A stretch of DNA of 64,000 nucleotides from Actinospica acidithermotolerans (GTDB lineage: Bacteria > Actinomycetota > Actinomycetes > Streptomycetales > Catenulisporaceae). Positions 33,370 to 52,037 of the stretch are shown piece by piece. Location of the stretch: contig NZ_JAGSOH010000006.1 in the NCBI RefSeq assembly GCF_018139625.1, positions 1 through 64,000 on the forward strand, written 5' to 3'. The notes beneath the pieces are model-generated. The model saw only the letters and a list, made by a program, of their open reading frames with translations. It searched no databases and was not told the origin of the DNA. Within the stretch, counting starts at the first letter, position 1; every line of letters starts with the position of its first letter. The position numbers were made by a program, and so were the translations under genes.

Positions 33370-35304
33370 GTGCGCATTCGAACACGTCCCCGAAACCGCG
33401 GGCCGCTCGCGCCCTTGCTGACCGCCGCGATGCTGCTCGCGGCGGCGGCGGGGACCGCGGCGGTGCTGCCCGGCACGGCCGCGGCCGCCTCGTCGACCGC
33501 GATCGTCACCGCCCCCGCCCAGACCGTGGCCGGCTTCGGCGCCTCCGGCGCCTGGTGGGTCAACGACCTGACGAACTTCTCGTCCTCCGTGCAGGCCCAG
33601 GTCGCCGCCGACCTGTTCACCGCGAGCGGGATCGACCTGAGCCAGTACCGCTACAACATCGGCGGCGGCGGGACCGGCGTCTCGGTCGCGGCCCGCGCGC
33701 CGCAGACCTTCCTGACCACGTCCGGCACGTACAACTGGTCCAACGACCCCGGCGGCCAGTACTTCCTCAAGGCGGCGGCCGCCGACGGCGTGCCGGACCT
33801 GATCGGCTTCGTGAACAGCGCGCCGGAGGAGTACACCACCGACGGCAAGAGCTGCGCCGGCTCGATCAGCACCGCGGACGACGCCGCGTACGGCGCGTAC
33901 ATCGCCACGATCGTCTCGCACTTCGCGTCCGCGGGCGTGACGCTCAACCAGATCTCGCCGATGAACGAGCCCGACAACTCCTTCAGCGGCTGCGGTCAGG
34001 AGGGCATGAGCGTCCCGGCCGCCGAGCGCGCGGGCGTGATCGACGCGGTCGGCTCCGCGCTGAACTCGGCCGGGCTGTCCACGAAGATCATCGCCGACGA
34101 GTCGAGCCAGACCACGCAGTTGCTCTCCGAGGCCCCGACCTGGCTCGCCGACTCCAGCGCCCCCGGCTACACCGCCGCGATCGCGCACCACACCTACGAC
34201 AACCCGTCGGACTCAGGCCTCGAGCAGGTCGGCTCGCTCGGCGACGTGAACGGCAAGCCGGTGTGGGCCAGCGAGATCTGCTGCCAGATCTCCGGAGGCG
34301 GCGGCTACGGCGCGCAGTACGACCCGACGATGGCGGGCGCGCTCACGCTGACCAACTACATCTACACCGACATGTCGTACGCCGACGACACGGCGTTCCA
34401 GTGGTGGACCGCGCTCTCCTCCGCGCTCGGCTGCGACCCGACGACCTCCAGCACCTGCGCCACGAGCGTCAACACGAACTCGACCGCCTGGAACGACGGG
34501 TTGCTCTACTACGACCCCAACTACGCCGCCGACGGCAACCAGACCATCTACCCGACCAAGCGCTACTACGCCCTCGGCCAGTACAGCAAGTACGTCCGGC
34601 CCGGCGCGGTCCGCTACGGCGTGTCCGGCTCGCCGTCCGGCGTGCAGACGATGGCCTTCTGGAACAGCTCGGCCAGCCAGTGGGACGTCGTGGCCACGAA
34701 CACGAACACCTCTGCCACCGCGCTGAGCCTGAACCTGAACAGCGGCACGCTCACCTCGAGCGCCGCGGTGCAGACCGACTCCAGCGAGAACATGGCAAGC
34801 ATCTCGGCGCCGACCATCTCCGGATCGACGATCAGCGCCTCGCTGCCCGCGCAGTCCGTGACCACCTATGTCCTCGGCAGCTCCGGCACCCCGGGCAGCG
34901 GTGGCGTGAGCGCGCAGGAGCTTGTCGGCAACCAGTCCGGCAAGTGCCTCGACGTCCCGAGCTCCTCGACGTCCAACGGCACGCAGCTGGAGATCTACAC
35001 CTGCAACGCCGGCGGCAACCAGGAGTACACGCTGCAGTCCAACGGCGAGATCACGGTCTACAGCGGTAGCTCCGAGAAGTGCCTCGACGCGTACAACCAG
35101 GGCAAGACCGCGGGCACGATCGTGGACATCTACACCTGCAACGCCGGCAGCAACCAGCTCTGGCAGGTGCATCCGGACGGCACGATCACCAACAACGAGT
35201 CAGGCCTCTGCCTCGACGCCTACGGCCAGGGCACCTCGAACGGCACGAAGATCGACCTGTACACGTGCAACGGAGGCGGCAACCAGCAGTGGGCGCTCGG
35301 CTAG
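33370..35304 (+). CDS. Secreted GH30 endo-beta-1,6-galactanase-like enzyme with ricin-type lectin domain
   Basis: The 644-residue protein has a signal peptide (cleavage near residue 39-40), then a GH30 catalytic domain beginning TVAGFGASGAWWVNDL. The acid/base is E200 in ISPMNEPDN and the nucleophile E302 in VWASEICC. The GASGAWW start and the lack of xylanase features point to the endo-beta-1,6-galactanase branch (inference). From ~residue 518 a ricin-type beta-trefoil (CBM13) shows three CLD-x-n-QxW-like repeats (KCLDVPSS, KCLDAYNQ, LCLDAYGQ; NQEYTL, NQLWQV, NQQWAL). It would attack side chains of type II arabinogalactan outside the cell. GTG at 33370 follows aaagggg. Confidence 0.85.
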   Translation: MRIRTRPRNRGPLAPLLTAAMLLAAAAGTAAVLPGTAAAASSTAIVTAPAQTVAGFGASGAWWVNDLTNFSSSVQAQVAADLFTASGIDLSQYRYNIGGGGTGVSVAARAPQTFLTTSGTYNWSNDPGGQYFLKAAAADGVPDLIGFVNSAPEEYTTDGKSCAGSISTADDAAYGAYIATIVSHFASAGVTLNQISPMNEPDNSFSGCGQEGMSVPAAERAGVIDAVGSALNSAGLSTKIIADESSQTTQLLSEAPTWLADSSAPGYTAAIAHHTYDNPSDSGLEQVGSLGDVNGKPVWASEICCQISGGGGYGAQYDPTMAGALTLTNYIYTDMSYADDTAFQWWTALSSALGCDPTTSSTCATSVNTNSTAWNDGLLYYDPNYAADGNQTIYPTKRYYALGQYSKYVRPGAVRYGVSGSPSGVQTMAFWNSSASQWDVVATNTNTSATALSLNLNSGTLTSSAAVQTDSSENMASISAPTISGSTISASLPAQSVTTYVLGSSGTPGSGGVSAQELVGNQSGKCLDVPSSSTSNGTQLEIYTCNAGGNQEYTLQSNGEITVYSGSSEKCLDAYNQGKTAGTIVDIYTCNAGSNQLWQVHPDGTITNNESGLCLDAYGQGTSNGTKIDLYTCNGGGNQQWALG

Positions 35305-35341
35305 CCGGCTGAGACGTCCCCGCACGGTTGTCGCGGGCGCT

Positions 35342-35388
35342 CGCGGCGCCCCGGGGGTGGCCGGACCGGCTACTCCCGGGGCGCCGCG
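35342..35388. terminator. Bidirectional terminator between GH30 and LacI genes
   Basis: A perfect 14-bp stem (cgcggcgccccggg at 35342-35355 with its complement at 35375-35388) encloses a smaller gccggaccggc hairpin. The right arm overlaps the last codons and stop of the lacI-type gene, so the hairpin terminates both convergent transcripts. Confidence 0.7.
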
Positions 35389-36407
35389 GTGCTGCCCCGG
35401 ACGATCAGCCGGGTGGGCACGATGATCTTGTGGTTGTCCCGTTCGCCGTCCACCTTCGCCAGCAGGTTCTGGATCGCCTGCCGGCCGACCTCGCCGAAGT
35501 CCTGCCGGATCGTGGTCAGCGGCGGCCAGAAGGAGTGCGCCTCCTCGAGGTCGTCGAAGCCGACCACGCTGATGTCGCCGGGCACGTCGCGGCCGAGCTC
35601 GTGCAGCGCGCGCATCAGGCCGAGGGCCATCTGGTCGTTGCCGGCGAAGATCGCCGTGACGTCGTCGCGCTGCCCGAGCTCCATGCCGTGCCGGTAGCCG
35701 GACTCGGTCGACCAGTCCCCGTAGCGCACCGGCGGCGGCTCGATCCCGGCATCCACCATGGTGCGCCGCCAGTACTCCATGCGGCGCATCGCGGAGAAGG
35801 AGGACTCCGGTCCGGCGACGTGCCAGATCTTCCGGTGCCCGAGGCTGAGCAGGTGCTCGGTGGCCTGCCGCGCGCCGTCCGCCTGGTCGGTGTCGACCAC
35901 GGTGTACGCGTCGCCCGCGTTCGAGTCGATGACCACGACCGGCAGGCCGGGCGGCAGGGTGAACTCGGCCTCGTCCAGCAGGTGCGCCTCGAAGATGATC
36001 ACGACGCCGTCCACCGCGGCCTCGCTGAGCCGGTTGTAGGCGCCGGAGACCTGCCCGAGGGTCGCCTCGCGCACCGGCAGCAGCGTGACGGAGTAGTCGG
36101 CGCGCGCGGCCTCGGTGGCGATCGCGTTGAGGGTGCTCATGTTTCCGAACGTGCGCAGCGTGAACATGATCACGCCGATCGCCTTGAACTTCCCGCGGCG
36201 CAGGGCCCGGGCGGCGGAGTTGGGCCGGTAGCCCAGGGCCTCCATCGACTCGACGACCCGCTGCCTGGTGAGCGGGTCCACGTTGGCGTGCCCGTTGGAC
36301 ACGCGGGAGACGGTCTGCGAGGACACTCCCGCGTGCCTGGCCACATCCCCCATCGACGGCTGCTTCGAGCGCCTCGCCGGGGCATCGCTCGAGGTCATCG
36401 GCTCCAC
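35370..36407 (-). CDS. LacI-family repressor of the galactan importer operon
   Basis: The N-terminal LacI helix-turn-helix is PSMGDVARHAGVSSQTVSRVSNG, with the hinge YRPNSAARALRRGKFKAIG. The periplasmic-binding-protein-like sensor ends in VVGFDDLEEAHSFWPPLTTIRQD. It is divergent from the sugar ABC importer, and twin operators lie between them. A sugar released by GH30 or GH35 is the likely inducer. The GTG at 36407 is suggested by aagga upstream; ATG at 36398 is an alternative. A perfect palindrome sits 14 nt before the start, suggesting autoregulation. Confidence 0.9.
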   Translation of the reverse strand: MEPMTSSDAPARRSKQPSMGDVARHAGVSSQTVSRVSNGHANVDPLTRQRVVESMEALGYRPNSAARALRRGKFKAIGVIMFTLRTFGNMSTLNAIATEAARADYSVTLLPVREATLGQVSGAYNRLSEAAVDGVVIIFEAHLLDEAEFTLPPGLPVVVIDSNAGDAYTVVDTDQADGARQATEHLLSLGHRKIWHVAGPESSFSAMRRMEYWRRTMVDAGIEPPPVRYGDWSTESGYRHGMELGQRDDVTAIFAGNDQMALGLMRALHELGRDVPGDISVVGFDDLEEAHSFWPPLTTIRQDFGEVGRQAIQNLLAKVDGERDNHKIIVPTRLIVRGSTAAPRE

Positions 36408-36420
36408 ATCGCTTTCCTTA

Positions 36421-36434
36421 CGGCAACGTTGCCG
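36421..36434. promoter_or_regulatory. Perfect 14-bp palindrome, LacI-type operator
   Basis: cggcaacgttgccg is fully self-complementary with a central CG, typical of LacI-family operators. It lies in the 5' leader of the repressor gene. Its half-site differs from that of the twin operators, so another LacI-type protein may bind it. Confidence 0.6.
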
Positions 36435-36459
36435 GTTTGTGATGTCATCCTGTGTGGGC

Positions 36460-36475
36460 ATGGTTACGTGAACAT
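36460..36475. promoter_or_regulatory. LacI-type operator, site 1
   Basis: ATGGTTACGTGAACAT matches the near-palindrome ATGTTNACGTNAACAT with one change. It lies in the divergent lacI-importer promoter region, 33 bp (about three helical turns) from site 2. Confidence 0.75.
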
Positions 36476-36492
36476 GGTAGCGTCACCCCATC

Positions 36493-36508
36493 ATGTTGAC
36501 GTAAACAT
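36493..36508. promoter_or_regulatory. LacI-type operator, site 2
   Basis: ATGTTGACGTAAACAT is a 16-bp near-perfect palindrome that fits ATGTTNACGTNAACAT fully. It is 24 nt upstream of the first importer gene, placed to block its transcription. Confidence 0.78.
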
Positions 36509-36532
36509 CGTCGTTCGTGCAGGGAAGAGAAC

Positions 36533-37456
36533 ATGACAGTGCTGTCAGCGGACTCGCCGCCGAGGTCGCGCAAGTCGGAGCTGAGGCCCCGTCGCCGGCG
36601 GAAGTGGACCGGTTGGGGCTTCGTGAGCCCCTTCCTCCTGGTCTTCCTCTTCGCGATGGTCGCCCCGGTGGGCTACGCGATCTATCTAAGTCTGTTCCAG
36701 GACAAGCTGATCGGCGGGAACCGGTTCGCCGGCCTGGCGAACTACACGCAGGCGCTGACCGACTCGCAGTTCTGGACGGGCTTCGGCCGCGTCTCGCTGT
36801 TCCTGGTCGTGCAGGTCCCGGTCATGCTGATCCTGGCCCTCGCGGTAGCGCTGGCCATCGACAGCGCGCGCCTGCACTGGGCGCCGCTGTACCGGATCTC
36901 CATCTTCCTGCCCTACGCGGTCCCCGCCGTCGTCGGCGCGCTGATGTGGGGCTTCATCTACGGCAACCAGTTCGGACTGGTCGCCGAGATCGGCGGCTGG
37001 TTCCACACCACGCTGCCGAACCCGCTGGACAACACGCTGATGCTCCCGGCGATCGGCAACATCGTCACCTGGGAGTACATCGGCTACAACATGCTGATCT
37101 TCTACTCCGCGCTGCGGGTGATCCCGGGCGAGCTGTACGAGGCGGCCGAGCTGGACAACGCGAGCCAGTGGCGGATCATCTGGCACATCAAACTGCCCGC
37201 GCTGCGGCCCGCCATCATGGTCGCGACGGTGTTCTCGATCATCGGCAGCTTCCAGCTGTTCACCGAGCCGAGCGTGCTCTACTTCCTGAACAAGGACGTC
37301 ATCGGCAGCGCGTACACCCCCAACTGGTACGCCTACAGCCTGTCCTTCAACGGCCAGGAGTACAACTACTCGGCCACCATCGCGATCCTCATGGGCCTGC
37401 TGACGGTGATCGTCGCCTACGTGGTCCAGCGCATCGGCCAGCGGAAGGGAGCCTGA
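36533..37456 (+). CDS. Sugar ABC transporter permease (MalF-like)
   Basis: The integral membrane subunit of a CUT1-type carbohydrate importer has six predicted helices. The cytoplasmic EAA loop, EAAELDNASQWRIIWHIKLP, contacts the ATPase. ATG at 36533 follows agggaagag. The stop is one nucleotide before the next start (TGAgATG), so the two permeases are tightly coupled. No ATPase gene lies in the operon; a shared MsiK-type ATPase elsewhere is the usual solution in actinobacteria. Confidence 0.92.
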   Translation: MTVLSADSPPRSRKSELRPRRRRKWTGWGFVSPFLLVFLFAMVAPVGYAIYLSLFQDKLIGGNRFAGLANYTQALTDSQFWTGFGRVSLFLVVQVPVMLILALAVALAIDSARLHWAPLYRISIFLPYAVPAVVGALMWGFIYGNQFGLVAEIGGWFHTTLPNPLDNTLMLPAIGNIVTWEYIGYNMLIFYSALRVIPGELYEAAELDNASQWRIIWHIKLPALRPAIMVATVFSIIGSFQLFTEPSVLYFLNKDVIGSAYTPNWYAYSLSFNGQEYNYSATIAILMGLLTVIVAYVVQRIGQRKGA

Positions 37457-37457
37457 G

Positions 37458-38378
37458 ATGGCAGCCACCGAGACCGCCGCGCCGCCGCGCGCCGCGCGCC
37501 CGGCCCGCCCCGTGCGCGGGGCGTGGAATCCGAACCGGCGTCCCAAGTCGAAGACGCTGACCCTGGTGATGACGCTCGGCCTGGTGTACTCGCTGCTGCC
37601 GCTGTTCTGGCTGCTGGTGAACTCCTCGAAGACGCAGGCGAACCTGTTCACCACGAACGGGCTGTGGTTCGGCGGCCACTTCGCCCTGCTCGACAACATC
37701 CAGCAGACGCTCACGTACAACGGCGACGAGTTCCTGCGCTGGTTCGGCAACACGATGCTCTACGTCGTGGTCGGCGCCGGCGGAGCGACCTTCCTCGCCA
37801 CGCTCGGCGGCTACGGGCTGGCGAAGTTCGACTTCCCGGGCAAGCGCGGCGTGTTCGCGCTGGTGCTCGGCGCCGTCGCCGTCCCGAGCACGGCGCTGGC
37901 CGTGCCGACCTTCCTCATGTTCAGCAAGATCGGCCTGGTCAACAACCCCTGGGGCATCATCATCCCCTCGCTGGTGAACCCGTTCGGGCTGTACCTGATG
38001 TGGATCTTCTCGCGGGACGCGATCCCGAACGAGCTGCTCGAGGCCGCCCGCGTGGACGGCGCCCGGGAGTGGCGGATCTTCTTCTCGATCACGCTCCGCC
38101 TGCTGCGCCCGGGTATGATCACCGTCCTGCTCTTCGCGGTCGTCGCGACCTGGAACAACTACTTCCTCCCGCTGATCATGCTGAACGACCCGAAGTGGTA
38201 TCCGCTGACGGTCGGCCTGAACCAGTGGAACGCGCAGTCCCAGACCGCGGGAAGCACGCCGATCTTCAACCTCGTCCTCACCGGATCGCTGCTCATGATC
38301 GTCCCGATCATGATCGTGTTCCTGGTGATGCAGCGCTACTGGCAGTCGGGTCTGGCCGCCGGCAGCGTCAAGCAGTGA
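37458..38378 (+). CDS. Sugar ABC transporter permease (MalG-like)
   Basis: This second permease of the CUT1 importer has a basic N-terminal tail (NPNRRPKSKTLTLVM), six helices and the EAA loop EAARVDGAREWRIFFSITLR. It pairs with the preceding MalF-like subunit to form the channel. The substrate is most likely galacto-oligosaccharides, judged from the flanking GH30 and GH35 enzymes. Confidence 0.92.
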   Translation: MAATETAAPPRAARPARPVRGAWNPNRRPKSKTLTLVMTLGLVYSLLPLFWLLVNSSKTQANLFTTNGLWFGGHFALLDNIQQTLTYNGDEFLRWFGNTMLYVVVGAGGATFLATLGGYGLAKFDFPGKRGVFALVLGAVAVPSTALAVPTFLMFSKIGLVNNPWGIIIPSLVNPFGLYLMWIFSRDAIPNELLEAARVDGAREWRIFFSITLRLLRPGMITVLLFAVVATWNNYFLPLIMLNDPKWYPLTVGLNQWNAQSQTAGSTPIFNLVLTGSLLMIVPIMIVFLVMQRYWQSGLAAGSVKQ

Positions 38379-38440
38379 CCGCACCACCCGTACCACAGCA
38401 CCTCAACACCCTCACACGAAGAAGTGGAAGGAACGTCGCC

Positions 38441-39811
38441 ATGACAGCAACGACTCGGACCGCGCGGGCCTGGCGCCGCGGCGCCGCCGTGGTGTTCGCG
38501 GGCACGATCGCGGCCGCCGGCTTGACCGCGTGCTCCAGCAGCAGCTCGGGCTCGGGCACGACGTCAGGCTCCTCCGGGAGCGCCTCGGACATCGCGGCCG
38601 CGCTGCAGAAGACGTCGACGATAACGGTCTGGGGCTGGGCTCCGCAGGACAAGGACATCGTCGCGGCCTTCGAGAAGAAGTACCCGAAGGTCACCGTCAA
38701 GCTGGTGAACGCCGGTACCGGAAGCACCGAGTACACCAAGCTGCAGAACGCGATCAAGGCCGGATCGGGTGTTCCGGACGTCGCCCAGATCGAGTACTAC
38801 GCGCTGCCGCAGTTCGCGCTGGCCGGCTCGGTGCAGAGCCTCGACGGCCTCGGCCTGGACAGCCTCAAGAGCGACTACTCCGCCGCCGTGTGGGACTCGG
38901 TCACCGTCAACGGCCAGCTCGACGCGCTGCCGCAGGACACCGGCCCGATGGCGCTGTTCTACAACAAGAAGATCTTCGACAAGTACGGCCTGACCGTCCC
39001 GACCACCTGGGACCAGTACGTCGCCGACGCCAAGAAGCTGCACGCGGCCAACCCGAACGAGTACATCACCGCGGACACCGGCGACCCCGGCTTCGTCACC
39101 AGCATGGCCTGGCAGGCCGGCGGCACCCCGTTCAAGGTCAGCGGCACCACGAACGTGACCATCGACACCGCGGACGCGGGCATGGCGAAGTTCACGAAGG
39201 AGTGGGACCAGCTGGAGGAGAACGGCCTGCTGTCGAACATCTCCGGCTGGACCAGCCAGTGGTTCACGGCGCTGGCCAACGGCACTATCGCCACGCTGCC
39301 GACCGGCGCGTGGATGCCGGGCAACCTCGAGGACAACGCCGCGGCCGCGTCCGGTGACTGGCGGGTCGCCCCGATGCCGACCTACGACGGCGGCACCGCG
39401 GCCTCCGCGGAGAGCGGCGGTTCCAGCTACGCGGTGATGAAGGGTTCGAGCAACTCGCTGGTCGCGGCCGGCTTCGACGAGTTCATGAACGCCCAGGACG
39501 GCGAGACCATCTTCGCCAACGAGGGCGGGTTCCCGTCGCTGAACTCGGTGCTCAGCTCGAGCTCCTTCCTGAACCAGGCCCCGGCCTACTTCGGCGGCCA
39601 GAAGATCAACCAGGTCCTGTCGGCGGCCGCCAGCTCGGTGCTGCCGGGCTGGAGCTACCTGCCGTTCCAGGTGTACGCGAACAGCATCTTCCCGGACTCG
39701 GTCGGCAAGGCCTACGAGGCCAAGACCGACATCGGCGCGGCGGTGACCACCTGGCTCAAGGCGTCCGCGACCTACGGCCAGCAGCAGGGCTTCACGGTCA
39801 CCGTCAAGTAG
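38441..39811 (+). CDS. Sugar-binding lipoprotein of the importer
   Basis: The 456-residue extracellular solute-binding protein (family 1) has a signal peptide with lipobox (AAGLTAC, then a Ser/Gly linker). The mature domain starts TSTITVWGWAPQDKDIVAAF and carries the family patterns GSGVPDVAQIEYYALPQF, GPMALFYNKKIFDKYGL and WTSQWFTALANGTIATLPTG. It would capture oligosaccharides at the membrane and deliver them to the two permeases. ATG at 38441 follows ggaagga. It is the third gene of the operon, and a strong hairpin follows before the GH35 gene, probably limiting read-through. Confidence 0.92.
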   Translation: MTATTRTARAWRRGAAVVFAGTIAAAGLTACSSSSSGSGTTSGSSGSASDIAAALQKTSTITVWGWAPQDKDIVAAFEKKYPKVTVKLVNAGTGSTEYTKLQNAIKAGSGVPDVAQIEYYALPQFALAGSVQSLDGLGLDSLKSDYSAAVWDSVTVNGQLDALPQDTGPMALFYNKKIFDKYGLTVPTTWDQYVADAKKLHAANPNEYITADTGDPGFVTSMAWQAGGTPFKVSGTTNVTIDTADAGMAKFTKEWDQLEENGLLSNISGWTSQWFTALANGTIATLPTGAWMPGNLEDNAAAASGDWRVAPMPTYDGGTAASAESGGSSYAVMKGSSNSLVAAGFDEFMNAQDGETIFANEGGFPSLNSVLSSSSFLNQAPAYFGGQKINQVLSAAASSVLPGWSYLPFQVYANSIFPDSVGKAYEAKTDIGAAVTTWLKASATYGQQQGFTVTVK

Positions 39812-39866
39812 CGGCCCGGCCTCGAGAGCCTCACGCACCACGCAGTACCCCACCACGCACATCAGG

Positions 39867-39909
39867 GCGTGCGGGCCGGCCGCGGCACCATCCCGGCCGG
39901 CCCGCACGC
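39867..39909 (+). terminator. Intercistronic hairpin between binding protein and GH35 genes
   Basis: A perfect 16-bp stem (gcgtgcgggccggccg with its complement at 39894-39909) has an 11-nt loop. It may stabilise the upstream mRNA and attenuate read-through, making GH35 less abundant than the binding protein. Confidence 0.7.
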
Positions 39910-39957
39910 GGGCGCGGCGTCCCCGCGCGACTTCGAGGATTGTAGGAAACAACCCGC

Positions 39958-41787
39958 ATGAGCACCCCCGTGCGCCGGTTCGCGATCGGCGAAGAAGACT
40001 TCCTGCTGGACGGCGAGCCCACGCGCATCCTCTCCGGGGCGCTGCACTACTTCCGCGTCCACCCCGACCTGTGGGCGGACCGCATCGTCAAGGCCCGCGA
40101 GATGGGCCTGAACACGATCGAGACCTACGTCGCCTGGAACGCGCACAGCCGGCGTCCGGGCGAATTCGAGGCCTCCGGCGGCCTCGACCTCGGCCGCTTC
40201 CTCGACACCGTCGCCGAGCACGGCATGCACGCGATCGTCCGGCCCGGCCCGTACATCTGCGCCGAATGGGACAACGGCGGCCTGCCCGCCTGGCTCTTCC
40301 AGCAGCCCGGCACCGGCATCCGCAGCAGCGAGCCGACGTACCTGGCCGCCGTCGAGGAGTACTACGAGCACCTGGCCCCGATCCTGGTGCCCCGCCAGAT
40401 CGACCGCGGCGGCCCGATCATCCTGGTCCAGGTCGAGAACGAGTACGGCGCCTACGGCAGCGACAAGGCCTACCTGAAGGCCCTGACCGAGCTGACCAGG
40501 CGCATCGGGATCACCGTCCCGCTGATCACCGTGGACCAGCCGCTCGACGACATGATCGAGAACGGCAGCCTGCCCGAACTGCACAAGACCGCCTCCTTCG
40601 GCTCGCGCGTCGGCGAGCGCCTGGACCGGCTCCGCCGGCACCAGCCGACCGGCCCGCTGATGTGCTCCGAGTTCTGGAACGGCTGGTTCGACAGCTGGGG
40701 CGGCCACCACCACACCACCGACGTGGACGAGATCGCCAAGAGCCTCGACGAGCTGCTCTCCCGGGGCGCGTCGGTCAACATCTACATGTTCCACGGCGGC
40801 ACGAACTTCGGCTTCACCAACGGGGCGAACGACAAGGGCACCTACGCCCCGATCGTCACCAGCTACGACTACGACGCGCCGTTGGACGAGGCGGGGAATC
40901 CGACGGCGAAGTACTGGGCGTTCCGCGACGTGATCGCGAAGCACGCCCCGGTGCCGGGGCTGGTTCCCGGAGAGCGCCGCACCGCTTTCCGGGAGCCACG
41001 CTCCCAGTCCGTCGAGGTCTCGGCCTCCCTCAGCGCGGCGGTGCCGCTCTGGCAGGTCGCCGACCGCCTCGGCGCCTGGTCCGAGCACGAGCAGCCGCCG
41101 ATGTGCGACTCGCTCGGCCACTACTCCGGCTTCACGCTGTACCGCACCGAGATCGAGCGCCGGGGCGCCGCGATACTCCGGGTCGCCGAGGTCCGCGACC
41201 GCGCCCAGGTCTTCGTGGACGGCCGGGCCGTCGGCGTCCTGGCCCGCGACCACCGCGACCGCGTGCTCACCCTCCCCGAAGACGCCCGCGGCACCCTCGA
41301 CCTGCTGATCGAGGACCAGGGGCGGGTCGACTACGGCCCCCGCATCGGCGAGCCCAAGGGCCTGATCGGCCCCGCGACCGTCAACGGCGACCAGGTCACC
41401 GGCTGGCAGGTGCTGCCGCTCGGCCTCGACGACATCACCCCGGTCGCCGAGGCGCTGCGCGACCTCACCGCCGCCGCGCACCCGGACGCGACGGCCGACG
41501 TCGTCGCCGGCCCCGCCTTCGCCCGCGCCGTCTTCGACGCGCCCGAGCACGAGGGAGCGATCGCCGACCTCTTCCTCGACACCGCCGAGTGGGGCAAGGG
41601 CGTCGCCTGGATCAACGGCTTCTGCCTCGGCCGCTACTGGTCCCGCGGCCCCCAGCGCACCCTCTACGTCCCCGCGCCCGTCCTGAAGGCCGAGGGCAAC
41701 GAGCTGATCATCTTCGAGCTCCACGCCACGGCCTCCGCCGACGTGCGCCTGCTGGCCTGCCAGGAACTCGGCCACACGGAGTTCTAG
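39958..41787 (+). CDS. GH35 beta-galactosidase (cytoplasmic)
   Basis: The 609-residue enzyme hydrolyses terminal beta-galactosides. GH35 landmarks are ILSGALHYFRVHPDLWADRI, NTIETYVAWNAHS, VRPGPYICAEWDNGGLPAWL, the acid/base E162 in VQVENEYGAYG, the nucleophile E238 in LMCSEFWNGWFDSW, and MFHGGTNFGFTNGA. C-terminal beta-sandwich domains follow, ending RYWSRGPQRTLYVPAPVLK. There is no signal peptide, so it acts on imported oligosaccharides, consistent with the preceding importer genes. ATG at 39958 is 12 nt after a weak agga site. Confidence 0.93.
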   Translation: MSTPVRRFAIGEEDFLLDGEPTRILSGALHYFRVHPDLWADRIVKAREMGLNTIETYVAWNAHSRRPGEFEASGGLDLGRFLDTVAEHGMHAIVRPGPYICAEWDNGGLPAWLFQQPGTGIRSSEPTYLAAVEEYYEHLAPILVPRQIDRGGPIILVQVENEYGAYGSDKAYLKALTELTRRIGITVPLITVDQPLDDMIENGSLPELHKTASFGSRVGERLDRLRRHQPTGPLMCSEFWNGWFDSWGGHHHTTDVDEIAKSLDELLSRGASVNIYMFHGGTNFGFTNGANDKGTYAPIVTSYDYDAPLDEAGNPTAKYWAFRDVIAKHAPVPGLVPGERRTAFREPRSQSVEVSASLSAAVPLWQVADRLGAWSEHEQPPMCDSLGHYSGFTLYRTEIERRGAAILRVAEVRDRAQVFVDGRAVGVLARDHRDRVLTLPEDARGTLDLLIEDQGRVDYGPRIGEPKGLIGPATVNGDQVTGWQVLPLGLDDITPVAEALRDLTAAAHPDATADVVAGPAFARAVFDAPEHEGAIADLFLDTAEWGKGVAWINGFCLGRYWSRGPQRTLYVPAPVLKAEGNELIIFELHATASADVRLLACQELGHTEF

Positions 41788-46009: not shown

Positions 46010-48715
46010 TTACGGCAGGGTCCAGATCTGGCCCTCCGTGGCGGCGCACGTCTCCAACTCGAGCTGCGTCTTGTTGGTGGCGCCGTTGCTGTTGTCCGTC
46101 AGGCACAGACCCGAGGCCGGGTTCACGAGCTCGCCGGCCGAGTTCCGGTCCCACTGCTCGGCCGCCGTGCCGTTGCAGGTGTGCAGCTGGATGGCGGTGC
46201 CAGCGGTCGTGGCGCCGCCGGTCACGTCCATGCAGTCGGTCATGACCTGCAGCGTGTTGTCCGGGGCGACGGTCCAGGTCTGCGCGTTGGTGCCGTTGCA
46301 CGTGTAGATCTGGATCGCGGTGCCGTTCGAGGTCCCGGCGCCGGCGTCGTCGACGCACTTGCCGGTGTCGGTCTCGGTGATGGCCCCCGTGGGTTCGGCG
46401 ACCCCGGTGCCCGCCGTGCCGCCGTACGACGGCGGCGCGTCGGCCGACGCCGAGGCCCACGAGGTCTCGGCGCTCGAACCGAGGGTGAAGTTCAGCGTCG
46501 TGCCGCTCTCCAGGTCCGCGGCGGGCAGGTACGCCAGGGACGAGGACGTGCCGTTGATCGTGAGACCCTGGACGTAGGGGTCGGCGTCGGCGGCGTTCGC
46601 CGCGCTGATCGTCAGTGTCTTGCCGCCGGAACCCGCCGAGACGACCGCCTCCGTGAACAGCGGGCTGCCGATCGCCAGGTCCGAGGTGCCCGGGGTCTCC
46701 GGGTAAAGGCCCAGCGCCGACCACACGTACCACGAGCTCATCTCGCCGAGGTCGTCGTTGCCGGGGATTCCCCCGGACGAATCCGACCACAGCTCGTCCT
46801 CGATCGCGCGCACGTTGCCCTGCGTCTTGTACGGCTCGCCGACCCAGTCGTACTCGTACGGGATCTCGATGCTCGGCTCGTTGCCCAGGTTCGCCTGCGT
46901 GCCCGCGACGCTGGCCAGGCCCTGATAGCCGCTCAGCACGCTGTCGAGATAGCCGGCCATCGACGAGTCGCCGCCCTCGAGGCTCGCGAGCCCGGCGATG
47001 TTGAACGGGATGTCGGGCGTGTAGGTGAACGCGTCGCCCTCGGCGAAGTCGTTCGACGACGTGCTGGTGATCAGCTTCGCGTCGAACCCGTCCATCCAGC
47101 GGCCGTTCGAGTGGCGTGGCTGGATGTAGCCGCTCGAGGAGTTGTAGATGTTCTCCCAGTCCTGCGCGCGGTTCTGGAATCTCGCCTGCACGGCCGTGTC
47201 GCCGAGCCTGCCCGCGAAGGCCGAGAGCGCGAAGTCGTCGATGTCGTACTCCAGTTGCGTCGACACCGTCGCGTACTCGTGGCAGCAGCCGTAGATGCTG
47301 TTCGTGGGCAGATAGCCGAAGCTGTCCAGGTACGTCACGCCCGGGGTGACGTCCGTATCGGTGGTCTGCTCCTTCTCCATCGCCGACAGCGCGGTCGCCG
47401 TATCGAAGCCGGTCGCGCCGAACGCGTAGTAGTCGGCCAGCACGGGCACCCCGGAGTCGCCGACCATGATGTAGGTCTCTCCGTTGTTCATGCCCCACTT
47501 GGTGAGGGTGCCGCCCTGCGTGTAGTCGTCGACGATCGATTGGGCCATGTCGGACGCCGCCGCTGGATTGATCAGGGCCGTGAGCTGGGCTTGCGATCTG
47601 TAGGTATCCCAGTTCGAGAAGTCCGCGTACTCATCGGAGTGCCCTGAGGCGACGGTGTGGACGCCGCCGTCGTAGCCCCGGTACGAGCCGTCCGCGTCGC
47701 TGACCACGCTCGGGTACAGCTCGGAGTGGTAGAGCGCGGTGTAGAACGTCGCCTGCTCGGCCGAGGTGCCGCCGGCGATTTCGATCTTGTCGAGGGCGGC
47801 CGTCCAGGACGCCTGCGCGGACGCCTCGACCTGCGCGAACGTCTTGCCGGCCACCTCGGCGTCCAGGTTCGCCTGCGCCTCGGCGGCCGAGGTGTAGGAC
47901 ACGCCGACGCGCGCCGTGACCGTGAGGGCCGACGACGGGGTGCCGAAGGTGACGTACGCGCCGCCCGGACCCGCCGAGGTGCTGCCGTACGTCCCTTCGG
48001 CGGTGAAGTTCGTGCCGAACTCGATCGCGAAGTAGACGGTGAAGTCGTTCGTCGCTTCGCAGAACCCTGAACTCGTGACCGAGCCGGTCAGCTCGGCGGA
48101 GCCCACGGTGCTGAGCGTCGAGGAGACGTAGGGGGTGTCTGGGCTGTCCAGCTTCAGCAGCAGGGACGCTGACGTCGATGCGGGAAAGGTGAACTGGCCG
48201 ATGCCGGCGTGAGTGGACGTGGTCAGTGCGACGGACGTTCCATTGCCCAGCGCGACGGAGTAATACCCAGGCGACGCCGTTTCATTGCTGTGCGAGAAGG
48301 ATTCGTCGTCCGAGCCGGGGCTGGAGCCGACCGCTCCGGTGATCGGCAGGATCGGGACGTCGCCCGCGGCCTCGCATCCGACGCCTGAGACGTGCGTCAG
48401 GCTGAAGCCGGTGATGTCCGAGTCCGCGTAGTCGTACCCTCCCCCGTTCGGCCTAGAGCTGGTGTCCGGGCTCCACTGGACCATCCCATGCGGGACGTCC
48501 GCGCCGGGGAAGGTGTTGCCGGCGCTGTAGTCCGCGTTGGAGCCGGTGCCGACGAAGGTGTTGACGAGCGAGTCCGGCGAGGTCACCAGAGTCGCCGCGT
48601 GGGCGGGGGTGGGGGCCGCGGCCGAGACCGCGAGCGTCGCGAGGGCGCCCGCGGTCAGGAACCGCAGCCCCTTGCCCGCCGCGCGGCGGGCAAGGGGCCG
48701 GAGTCTGTCAGCCAC
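46010..48715 (-). CDS. Secreted GH92 alpha-mannosidase with ricin-type lectin tail
   Basis: The 901-residue protein has a signal peptide (cleavage near AHA, ~40) and a two-domain GH92 enzyme: LVNTFVGTGSNADYSAGNTF, FSLTHVSGVGCEAAGDVPIL, ADFSNWDTYRSQAQL, NEPSIEIPYEYDWVGEPYKT, and the family-typical GNDDLGEMSSWYVWSALGLY with the catalytic Glu. GH92 enzymes are Ca-dependent exo-alpha-mannosidases. From ~residue 770 a ricin-type beta-trefoil follows (KCVDDAGAG, CMDVTGG, LCLTDNS with QTWTV, EQWDR, QIWTL). The GTG start at 48715 lies inside the end of the PI-PLC gene (8-bp overlap), so translation is coupled. Confidence 0.92.
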   Translation of the reverse strand: MADRLRPLARRAAGKGLRFLTAGALATLAVSAAAPTPAHAATLVTSPDSLVNTFVGTGSNADYSAGNTFPGADVPHGMVQWSPDTSSRPNGGGYDYADSDITGFSLTHVSGVGCEAAGDVPILPITGAVGSSPGSDDESFSHSNETASPGYYSVALGNGTSVALTTSTHAGIGQFTFPASTSASLLLKLDSPDTPYVSSTLSTVGSAELTGSVTSSGFCEATNDFTVYFAIEFGTNFTAEGTYGSTSAGPGGAYVTFGTPSSALTVTARVGVSYTSAAEAQANLDAEVAGKTFAQVEASAQASWTAALDKIEIAGGTSAEQATFYTALYHSELYPSVVSDADGSYRGYDGGVHTVASGHSDEYADFSNWDTYRSQAQLTALINPAAASDMAQSIVDDYTQGGTLTKWGMNNGETYIMVGDSGVPVLADYYAFGATGFDTATALSAMEKEQTTDTDVTPGVTYLDSFGYLPTNSIYGCCHEYATVSTQLEYDIDDFALSAFAGRLGDTAVQARFQNRAQDWENIYNSSSGYIQPRHSNGRWMDGFDAKLITSTSSNDFAEGDAFTYTPDIPFNIAGLASLEGGDSSMAGYLDSVLSGYQGLASVAGTQANLGNEPSIEIPYEYDWVGEPYKTQGNVRAIEDELWSDSSGGIPGNDDLGEMSSWYVWSALGLYPETPGTSDLAIGSPLFTEAVVSAGSGGKTLTISAANAADADPYVQGLTINGTSSSLAYLPAADLESGTTLNFTLGSSAETSWASASADAPPSYGGTAGTGVAEPTGAITETDTGKCVDDAGAGTSNGTAIQIYTCNGTNAQTWTVAPDNTLQVMTDCMDVTGGATTAGTAIQLHTCNGTAAEQWDRNSAGELVNPASGLCLTDNSNGATNKTQLELETCAATEGQIWTLP
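48667..48698 (-). other. Hairpin in the first codons of the GH92 gene
   Basis: The stretch 48667-48681 pairs perfectly with 48684-48698 (15-bp stem gccccttgcccgccg, 2-nt loop). On the mRNA this begins 17 nt after the GH92 start codon, just past the PI-PLC stop, within the signal-peptide codons. It could slow initiation or tie GH92 translation to ribosomes finishing PI-PLC. Confidence 0.55.
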
Positions 48716-49799
48716 GGGCCAGGACCTCGCTCAGGACGCCGTCGCCGGGGGAGTTGTACCAGTCGGTCGACACGTACGACGCGCCGTCGGCGGCCAGCTC
48801 GGCCACCCGCGCCTCGGCGTCCGCGAGGCTCGGGGCGCTGCTGGAGAGCGCCGGGGCCACGTCGTAGGCGTCGGTGACGACGGCCAGGTAGTGGTTCGTG
48901 TTGTACCACTCGGTGTCGCCGTCGGAGACGAAGGCCCCGGCGTCCTGGTCGAAGACGACGAACCACGGCCGCAGCGCGGTGTTGCTGTAGCGCAGCCGCG
49001 GGTCGCCCGTCTGCGCGCCGAGCACCGACGGGAAGACCGCCGCGTCCGCGATGGTGCCGGCGTCGTAGAGGTCGATCAGGTGCTGCGCGTAGACCTGGTC
49101 CACCCACGTCGAGGACGAGGACGTGGCCTGCTCGTAGGTGCCGGGGATGATCTCCACGATCGCCTTGCCCTCGAGCGAGGCGTAGTTGCCCCAGTTGTCC
49201 GCGGTCGCGGCCGCGTCGAGGGTGGGGTACATGGTGCCGTCGGACTTGGTCAGCAGGTCCTTCGGGGTGTAGAGCACGCCGGACAGGTGCGTCTGGACGT
49301 ACGTGTCGAACGCGGCCGGGGTCTGCGAGGACCAGGAGCCGAAGCCGTTCTTCATCTCGATCTTGACCATGATCGGGTGGCTGGCCGGGTGGTCCAGCAG
49401 CCAGTACCGGATGTCGTCCAGGCAGCTGTCCAGGTTCTGGTTCCGGTCGCCGGTGTAGTCGTCGGCGTAGGAGCTGGACTGGACGCAGTTGTTGTCGCTG
49501 GCCAGCGGGTCGCTGTGGCTCACGTCCCACTTGCCGTTGAGCGCGTTGGCCCAGGTGTCCAGCTCCACCAGCGAGGTGCCGGTGTCCAGCGCGTTCGCCA
49601 GGTAGGTGTACTCGGACTTGTCGTTGTAGGTGTTGTGCAGGCCCGTTCCGGTGACGCCGGACAGGTTGTAGGAGCCGTAGTCGAGCGCCTGCGCGGGAGC
49701 GGCGGCCGCCGCTCCGACGCCGACGGCGGACAGCAGCAGCGCCGCCGCGGCGGCCAGCCGCGCGCCCGCGCGCCTGGTGATCGGGGTGGGTAGGGGCAT
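48708..49799 (-). CDS. Secreted phosphatidylinositol-specific phospholipase C (Ca2+-dependent type)
   Basis: The 363-residue protein has a signal peptide (cleavage near AQA, ~38) and a TIM-barrel PLC-like domain. Catalytic and metal residues are expected in GTGLHNTYNDKS (first His), SLVELDTWANALNGKWDVSHSDPLA (acidic metal ligands and second His), HPIMVKIEMKNG and IVEIIPGTYEQ. This resembles the secreted Ca2+-dependent PI-PLC of Streptomyces. It would cleave phosphatidylinositol-type headgroups from diacylglycerol. ATG at 49799 follows gaggaga. Its stop overlaps the GH92 start, so the pair forms an operon. Confidence 0.78.
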   Translation of the reverse strand: MPLPTPITRRAGARLAAAAALLLSAVGVGAAAAAPAQALDYGSYNLSGVTGTGLHNTYNDKSEYTYLANALDTGTSLVELDTWANALNGKWDVSHSDPLASDNNCVQSSSYADDYTGDRNQNLDSCLDDIRYWLLDHPASHPIMVKIEMKNGFGSWSSQTPAAFDTYVQTHLSGVLYTPKDLLTKSDGTMYPTLDAAATADNWGNYASLEGKAIVEIIPGTYEQATSSSSTWVDQVYAQHLIDLYDAGTIADAAVFPSVLGAQTGDPRLRYSNTALRPWFVVFDQDAGAFVSDGDTEWYNTNHYLAVVTDAYDVAPALSSSAPSLADAEARVAELAADGASYVSTDWYNSPGDGVLSEVLARG

Positions 49800-49950
49800 G
49801 GGTCGTCTCCTCGAGGGTTTTCAAGGGGGAGTTCGGCCGGGAGCCAGGGTGCATACTGACACACCGTCGGACCGCCGTCGAGGGCGTGTCGGGGGATTCG
49901 TACCGCGCGGGTTTCTCATGAACCCCGCTTGCAGCGATGCAGGTCAAAGA

Positions 49951-49994
49951 GGTCTGAGAGCGTTCACAAAGCAGTCGCTCAGTGTTCTCCGAAC
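49951..49994 (+). promoter_or_regulatory. PHO-box-like array of four 11-nt units
   Basis: Four consecutive 11-nt units start at 49951 (ggtctgagagc), 49962 (gttcacaaagc), 49973 (agtcgctcagt) and 49984 (gttctccgaac). Each begins with (G/A)(G/T)TC. This periodicity and the GTTCAC core match PhoP-binding direct repeats in Streptomyces. It lies 76 nt before the PAP2 gene and 152 nt before the divergent PI-PLC gene, suggesting phosphate-starvation control. Confidence 0.5.
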
Positions 49995-50069
49995 GGCAGC
50001 GCGGGCCCCGGATGCTGCCCAGTCGGAAGCAACCACACGCACGGACAACCGGCCGTCGACAGAAAGCCG

Positions 50070-52037
50070 ATGATGACCCTCGCTACGAGCAAGCTCAGCC
50101 GCCGTGGATTCCTGGCCGTCTCGGCCGCGACCCCCGTCGCGTTCTACGCCACGCCCGCCGCCGCCTCCGCGAAGGCCGCCGCGACAGGGACCTCGCTCGC
50201 CGAGACCGTGACCGGGCTGCCCTTCGTCGAGTCCTACCAGACCAACGTCTCGGCGAACCTGACCGCCGCCTCGAACGCCGCCGTGCGCGCCCTCGACGGC
50301 ATGGCCGTCGCGTGGGAGACCGGCGCCGCCTGGAACACCGGCTCCGTGCTGCTCGCCGACTACCTGCGCGCGAACATGCGGATCAGCGCCCGACTCACCA
50401 AGGAGCGCACCGAGGCGCAGGCCAAGGAGGCGTTCATCTTCGACCGCCGCGACCAGAGCTACACGATGATCACCGGCCTCGGCCCGCTCGCAGACCTCTA
50501 CAAGGCCGGCTCGCTCGCCGTCACCAGCATCACCTCCGCCCCCGACGGCACCCCGGCCACCACGGTCAGCGACGCGGTCCCGGCCGGTGCCCCGGCCGGC
50601 TCGGCCACCGGCCCCGGCTCGGCCACCTCGGCGCTCGGCGCGGTCGTCGTGCTCGAGGAGACCCTGCGCGGCAGCTACTCCTCGGGCAACCCCTCGAAGA
50701 ACGCCTACCAGTACCCGCGGCCGTGGCGGATGAACGAGGACAGCGAGGTCGTGGACACCGGCACGGTGGACGCGTACGGCTACCCGGTCTACGAGTCCGA
50801 CGTCGAGGTCTGCGCGCAGCTGCTGCTCCAGCGCAGCCTGACCCCGGCGAGCGACGGCGGCTTCCCGAGCGGCCACTCCAACGCGTTCTACCTGGCGGGC
50901 ATCGCCTACGCGTACGCGATCCCCGAGCGCTTCCAGGAGCTGATCGCCTGCGCCGCGTACAGCGCGAACACCCGCATCATCGCCGGCATGCACTCGCCGA
51001 ACGACGTGATCGGCGGCCGGATCCTGGCCACCGCCCTCGCCGCCGCGATCCTGCACGACCCCGCGAACGCGTCCGTCAAGGCCGCCGCGCGCGCGAACGC
51101 CCTCTCCTACTTCGAGGCGCAGACCAGCACGACCGCCGACACCCTCTTCGCCTACGCGCACTCGCAGGGCCTTAACGAGGACCTGTTCGCCGACCGCGAG
51201 ACCAACGCGGGCTACGTCTACCCGCACCTGACCTACGGCCTGCCGTCGCAGGGCTCGCAGAAGCCCGCGAGCGTCTATACGGTGCCCGAGGGCGCCGAGG
51301 TGCTGCTCGAGACCCGCCAGCCCTACCTGACCGCCGACCAGCGCCGCGACGTGCTCGCGACCACGGCGATCGACGACCGCAACGTCATGCTGGACGGCTT
51401 CGAGGAGTGGGGCCGGATCAACCTGTTCGCCGCCGCCGACGGCTACGCCGCCTTCGCGAGCACCGTCACCGTCGCGATGGACGCGGCCCAGGGCGGCTTC
51501 AGCAAGGCCGACTCCTGGAAGAACGACATCGCCGGCCGCGGCGGCCTCGTGAAGCAGGGCACCGGCTCGCTCACCCTGACCGGCTCGAACAGCTACACCG
51601 GCGGCACCACGATCGAGGCCGGCACGATCGTCGCCGCCTCGGCCAGTGCCCTCGGCAACGGCGACGTGACCGTCCAGTCCGCCGGAACGCTCGCTGTCTC
51701 CTCCGACGCGGCGACTCGCGGCGTCGAGATCCGCGGCGACTACACGCAGGACGGCGGCACGCTGCAGCTTGCGCTCGGCAGCGGTGGCGCCGACGGGAAC
51801 GGCAGCGGCGGGTTCACCGGCTGCGGAGCGGCCCTCTCCGTCGACGGCCGCGTCGAGCTCGCCGCAGGCAGCACGCTCGCGCTCACCCTGACCGGCGCCC
51901 CGCGCAAGGGCACCGTGGTCCCGGTCATCGAGGCCCGCAACGTGCGCGGCTGGTTCGACTCCGTGACCGTGAACATCGCGGGCGTCCAGGCCGTCCCGGT
52001 CCAGACCCGCGACGGTATCGCCATCCGCTTCGCCTAG
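50070..52037 (+). CDS. Tat-exported PAP2 (class A) acid phosphatase with autotransporter-like repeat
   Basis: The 655-residue protein has a twin-arginine signal (KLSRRGFLAVSAATP) and a vanadium-haloperoxidase-fold phosphatase domain. The motifs are KNAYQYPRPWR, GGFPSGHSNAFY (residues ~264-275) and NTRIIAGMHSPNDVIGGRI, in which Thr replaces the usual Ser before Arg. The C-terminal ~150 residues contain KQGTGSLTLTGSNSYTGGTT and repeated beta-strand patterns, a motif known from autotransporter passenger domains, unusual in a Gram-positive. The ATG at 50070 (or 50073) has a weak agaaag site. A PHO-box-like array precedes it; PI-PLC and GH92 are divergent. Confidence 0.85.
   Translation: MMTLATSKLSRRGFLAVSAATPVAFYATPAAASAKAAATGTSLAETVTGLPFVESYQTNVSANLTAASNAAVRALDGMAVAWETGAAWNTGSVLLADYLRANMRISARLTKERTEAQAKEAFIFDRRDQSYTMITGLGPLADLYKAGSLAVTSITSAPDGTPATTVSDAVPAGAPAGSATGPGSATSALGAVVVLEETLRGSYSSGNPSKNAYQYPRPWRMNEDSEVVDTGTVDAYGYPVYESDVEVCAQLLLQRSLTPASDGGFPSGHSNAFYLAGIAYAYAIPERFQELIACAAYSANTRIIAGMHSPNDVIGGRILATALAAAILHDPANASVKAAARANALSYFEAQTSTTADTLFAYAHSQGLNEDLFADRETNAGYVYPHLTYGLPSQGSQKPASVYTVPEGAEVLLETRQPYLTADQRRDVLATTAIDDRNVMLDGFEEWGRINLFAAADGYAAFASTVTVAMDAAQGGFSKADSWKNDIAGRGGLVKQGTGSLTLTGSNSYTGGTTIEAGTIVAASASALGNGDVTVQSAGTLAVSSDAATRGVEIRGDYTQDGGTLQLALGSGGADGNGSGGFTGCGAALSVDGRVELAAGSTLALTLTGAPRKGTVVPVIEARNVRGWFDSVTVNIAGVQAVPVQTRDGIAIRFA

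Follow-up and report, generated by a model that had tools for sequence, protein, structure and literature searches.

Conserved overlapping genes for a phospholipase C and a lectin-bearing GH92 mannosidase in Actinospica, Streptomyces and Streptacidiphilus

The window, by which we mean the whole 64,000-nt stretch of Actinospica acidithermotolerans DNA analysed here, carries on its minus strand two overlapping genes. The upstream gene (48708-49799) has an ATG start and encodes a phospholipase C (PLC) of 363 amino acids of the Streptomyces antibioticus PLC1 type (PF16670). The downstream gene (46010-48715) has a GTG start and encodes a GH92 protein of 901 amino acids with a ricin-B lectin. The two genes share 8 bp, GTGGCTGA (48708-48715, minus strand), which contain both the GTG of the GH92 gene and the TGA of the PLC gene. 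A sequence-only reading of this DNA had reported this overlap, and we recover it on locating both open reading frames. That reading also gave both proteins signal peptides; judged by eye, the N-termini of the PLC (MPLPTPITRR...APAQA) and of the GH92 protein (MADRLRPLARR...TPAHA) do resemble cleavable ones. Divergent from the pair, on the plus strand, lies a gene for a PAP2/PhoN-like acid phosphatase with a Tat signal and one beta-strand repeat (50073-52037; the open reading frame opens at 49929, and 50073 is the likely start). The region between the divergent genes (49800-50072) includes a block, GTGAACGCTCTCAGnCCTCTT, common to the window and Actinospica durhamensis. The repeat of the phosphatase-like protein is of the autotransporter type (TIGR02601, PF12951), here in a Gram-positive actinobacterium.

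The PLC matches the Pfam profile PF16670 (PI-PLC-C1) just above its cut-off (E 5.6e-8, 32.7 bits versus 29.9), and the structure of S. antibioticus PI-PLC1 (PDB 3h4w) aligns to residues 49-363, its whole mature length, with an E-value of 6e-82. The alignment identifies H55 and H95 as the catalytic histidines. Eight residues (H55, N56, E79, D81, H95, K146, E148 and K150) do not vary across the 12 paired PLCs and 35 others compared. By its sequence, then, the active site of the window PLC is intact, and the prospect of a PLC inactive on PI-type lipids, raised in the sequence-only reading, does not hold for this copy. The same genome has a second PLC at 60% identity (G000:C386:2311-3348; L002, L046), which has no GH92 neighbour.

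The GH92 protein consists of an N-domain (residues 50-273), a catalytic domain (280-746) and a C-terminal ricin-B beta-trefoil lectin (776-898). It matches PF17678 (203 bits), PF07971 (468 bits) and the Ricin_B_lectin profile in Pfam, the last bearing out the lectin domain noted earlier, as well as TIGR01180 (496 bits) and NF035929 in NCBIfam. The predicted catalytic acid E559 (in AEGD) and base D655 (in NDD) align with E533 and D644 of BT3990. We looked for the alpha-1,2 signature in the window protein and did not find it: the 580-loop is shortened and has no HE, and NDD stands in place of DED. In contrast, two GH92s from the same order (L118 and L119) have both HE and DED. The NDD motif has been reported for alpha-1,3 GH92 enzymes (PMC12858847, PMC5930347), but these have no conserved motif at the +1 subsite (PMC9522356), so the linkage cleaved by the window protein is not readable from its sequence.

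The PLC protein ends in ...LARG, and the GTG start of the GH92 gene arises within the final PLC codons, CGT GGC TGA. The junction GTGGCTGA is identical in 12 inspected species of Actinospica, Streptomyces and Streptacidiphilus (the window, L032-L038, L043, L076, L079 and L081), and the proteins of these pairs diverge to about 70% identity. CGT, the arginine codon that generates the start, is present in all overlapping pairs and absent from the unpaired PLCs (about 37 distinct sequences), where the matching Arg-Gly-stop is usually CGC GGC TGA; these sequences are mutually related, so we attach no probability to the association. CGT makes up just 3-25% of the arginine codons in the pair genes. 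Because this rare codon is tied to the overlapping pairs, we have good evidence, at the level of codons, for the GTG as the true start of the GH92 gene and for selection on the coupling. One more distant locus (G004) keeps the gene order but has 6 bp between the two genes, and its GH92 starts with ATG. Taken as a sequence feature, the coupled gene pair is well established, and its description as a conserved, putatively translationally coupled unit is well supported.

The adjacency extends well beyond close relatives. In a set of 148 relative genomes and a set of 392 genomes of the order, each GH92 with 65% or more identity to the window protein has PLC sequence immediately upstream, where the chance of a GH92 within 10 kb of a PLC is about 0.5% of such genomes; therefore the pairing is more than chance. 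Genome scans and searches among relatives show a PLC gene followed by a GH92 gene also in Actinospica durhamensis, Streptomyces guryensis, S. monashensis, Streptacidiphilus jeojiense and S. carbonis, in Streptomyces spp. CoH27, IMTB 2501 and Ag109_O5-1, and in further genomes. The 14 paired GH92s group as a single clade in the GH92 tree (support 100), and PLC DNA lies upstream in 14/14. Among the nearest GH92s outside this clade (45-55% identical to the window protein), none has a PLC within the flanks covered, about 1.5 kb. The paired PLCs cluster with support in the PLC tree, in a group that takes in two copies lacking a GH92 partner, from this genome and from G002. Flanking genes vary among the loci; the two genes of the pair remain side by side. 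Most genes of the PLC family have no GH92 nearby, and most GH92s have no PLC; at eight PF16670 loci checked, nearly all outside the order, none has a GH92 beside the PLC. The PLC DNA is dead or a remnant at two of the 14 paired loci. In G669 (L081), an in-frame deletion takes out H95 to E148 and the overlap GTGGCTGA is retained; in G073, only a PLC remnant is left and the GH92 is kept. Since both loci lost the PLC and kept the GH92, the GH92 would be useful alone.

Among the neighbouring genes, the single-copy PAP2/PhoN-like phosphatase gene adjoins the pair in two genera, divergently in Actinospica and on the same strand upstream of the PLC in Streptacidiphilus; at the Streptomyces loci it is unlinked or absent. 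No mannan, lipid or inositol genes are shared around the Streptomyces loci, and no conserved GH76, GH99, GH125 or protease gene accompanies the pair. We scanned 12 loci for a tandem GTTCACC-type PHO box upstream of the PLC and found none convincing, the best scores being mostly not above noise. A single GTTCAC half-site, shared within Actinospica, lies near the PAP2-PLC promoters of the window and of A. durhamensis; unlike these, the pstS promoters of G002, G695 and G753 have a tandem PHO box. Elsewhere in the window (33370-41787, plus strand) lie genes for a GH30-like protein with a ricin-B lectin, two binding-protein-dependent permeases of sugar type and a GH35 beta-galactosidase, a probable carbohydrate-use cluster.

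A second association of the two families occurs in Streptomyces. In G053 and G136 the gene directly downstream of a PLC encodes a GH92 from a remote subfamily, with about 35-38% identity; in G048, G075, G099, G103 and G110 such a GH92 lies 4.5-9 kb from a PLC. The PLCs of this association form a separate clade. Because both its PLCs and its GH92s are far from those of the window in the two trees, the association has, on phylogenetic grounds, probably arisen at least twice; we count the second as one further event, not seven, since its members are close relatives. At several of the Streptomyces loci with a PLC beside or near a remote GH92 (L047, L059-L062, L120 and L121) there is also an amino-acid permease.

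These observations bear on how the pairing is to be explained. The overlap could have formed once by chance and been kept only because the GH92 start now depends on translation of the PLC. Such a history would fit the single origin of the window-type pairing in both trees and the overlap retained with a dead PLC in G669. We give it very little credence, as most paired PLCs appear catalytically intact across genera, a second PLC-GH92 association exists, and the phosphatase gene flanking the PLC recurs. The main rival is general scavenging, in which the operon co-produces a PI-degrading lipase and a mannan-trimming glycosidase for separate substrates: the lipase would draw on membrane debris for phosphate and fatty acids, the GH92 on fungal walls or glycoproteins for carbon, as in the digestion of dead fungi. 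That each enzyme stands alone in most genomes, that two of the 14 loci did without the PLC, that the lectin-bearing GH92 resembles enzymes acting on glycan substrates, and that the carbohydrate-use cluster lies in the upstream part of the window are all consistent with this explanation. General co-use would need neither an overlap of start and stop so exactly conserved nor a recurring link of PLC to two unrelated GH92 subfamilies, and we regard scavenging of separate substrates as possible but somewhat doubtful.

The most likely reading, to which we assign a probability of about 0.5, is that the pair is a secreted salvage unit that jointly dismantles mannosylated inositol phospholipids. Its basis is the overlap, the domains, the intact catalytic residues, the conserved coupling and the two separate PLC-GH92 associations, from which we infer secretion, the two activities, their order and a common substrate. 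The pair would be a two-gene translationally coupled operon, with both hydrolases secreted and working in the soil around the cell. The GH92 with its lectin would trim alpha-mannose off the head group, and the PI-PLC would cut the phosphodiester, detaching (mannosyl)inositol phosphate from its lipid; the neighbouring secreted acid-phosphatase-like protein of Actinospica and Streptacidiphilus may release phosphate afterwards. The benefit would be salvage of phosphate, inositol and mannose. The persistence of the pair amid changing flanks and the adjacent phosphatase gene in two genera also speak for this reading. Against it stand the many PLCs and GH92s that have no partner, the two loci that kept the GH92 but not the PLC, the finding of no other conserved lipid- or inositol-use genes around the pair, the phosphatase gene being unlinked or missing at the Streptomyces loci, the negative PHO-box scan, and the eight PLC loci, nearly all outside the order, at which we found no pair. 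That coupled synthesis points to joint action had been argued from this locus alone; conservation of the coupling strengthens the argument, and the specific substrate and action on one molecule we infer beyond it. Candidate substrates are actinobacterial phosphatidylinositol mannosides (PIMs), fungal mannosyl-inositol-phosphoceramides and GPI-type lipids. The sequence-only reading had taken GPI and PIM/LAM as the only common substrates joining both bonds, a list that proves too short, as fungal mannosyl-inositol-phosphoceramides (IPC/MIPC/M(IP)2C) are also among the substrates with both (PMC12942302). Streptomyces membranes contain PI and acylated PIM2 (Ac-PIM2), and it has been suggested that PI serves Streptomyces as a store of phosphate (PMC7937720).

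A stricter version of the salvage reading would have the mannosidase obligatorily first: once mannose is off the inositol ring in PIM or fungal MIPC, the hydroxyl that serves the PLC as nucleophile would be exposed, and in some genera the phosphatase would complete the process. We consider this version unlikely. In classical PI-PLCs the inositol 2-OH is the attacking group, and in PIM and yeast MIPC mannose sits on the inositol 2-oxygen, so for an enzyme of that kind the mannosidase would have to act first. In GPI the 2-OH is free once deacylated. S. antibioticus PLC1, however, reportedly uses the inositol 6-OH and forms a 1,6-cyclic product; GPI is glycosylated at inositol O-6, so that, if this holds, GPI would not be cut.

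The reported 6-OH nucleophile also speaks against release of GPI-anchored mannoproteins, in which the PLC would cut fungal or protist GPI anchors and the GH92 trim anchor or protein mannans. Certain bacterial PI-PLCs do cut GPI, that of S. aureus among them (PMC10149971), and the GH92 enzyme BT3965 cleaves alpha-1,4-mannosides, a linkage that its authors note in GPI cores (PMC5930347). The window PLC, however, belongs to the S. antibioticus PLC1 group and not to the B. cereus/S. aureus type, and conserved GH76, GH99, GH125 or protease genes are missing at the pair. Specificity for GPI anchors, one of the options raised earlier, thus gains nothing from our results, in which no feature points to GPI and the alpha-1,2 signature motifs are absent from the GH92; we hold it to be improbable.

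Both enzyme families are known, and the coupled PLC-GH92 unit appears to be undescribed in the literature that we searched; a search for PIM degradation by a PLC and a mannosidase found nothing. Little is known about how bacteria degrade mannosylated inositol lipids, and no secreted unit for the turnover of PIM or of fungal GIPC has, to our knowledge, been described. A PLC-mannosidase pair held together across genera by an exact overlap offers a concrete two-enzyme system, which would also have practical use in structural studies of PIM, GPI and GIPC glycolipids.

Among known systems, a related one is the use of PI by Streptomyces under phosphate limitation, where the idea is likewise that cleavage of PI yields inositol phosphate, whose dephosphorylation then provides phosphate; SCO0921, however, is a hemolysin/N-acyltransferase-type protein of another family, and that system has no mannosidase (PMC7937720). 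S. antibioticus PI-PLC1 (3h4w, 3h4x) is of the same family as the window PLC, and the aligned catalytic His, Glu, Asp and Lys are kept, but in the window an overlapping GH92 gene comes after the PLC gene, and the PLC has clade-specific changes, including a short insertion at about 185-188 and E236V. The GH92 protein shares its overall architecture with the alpha-1,2-mannosidases of the BT3990/BT2199 type, from which it differs in the absence of the HE 580-loop and DED motif described for alpha-1,2 enzymes (PMC12858847). With the alpha-1,3 enzymes BT3130 (6f8z) and B035DRAFT_03340 (7zgm) it has in common both domains, the Glu acid, the NDD base motif and membership of a Ca-dependent family (PMC9522356). 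At the +1 subsite the window protein has NEPS followed by I/E where BT3130 and 7zgm have HH, and, unlike these two enzymes, it carries an extra ricin-B lectin and is coupled to a lipase.
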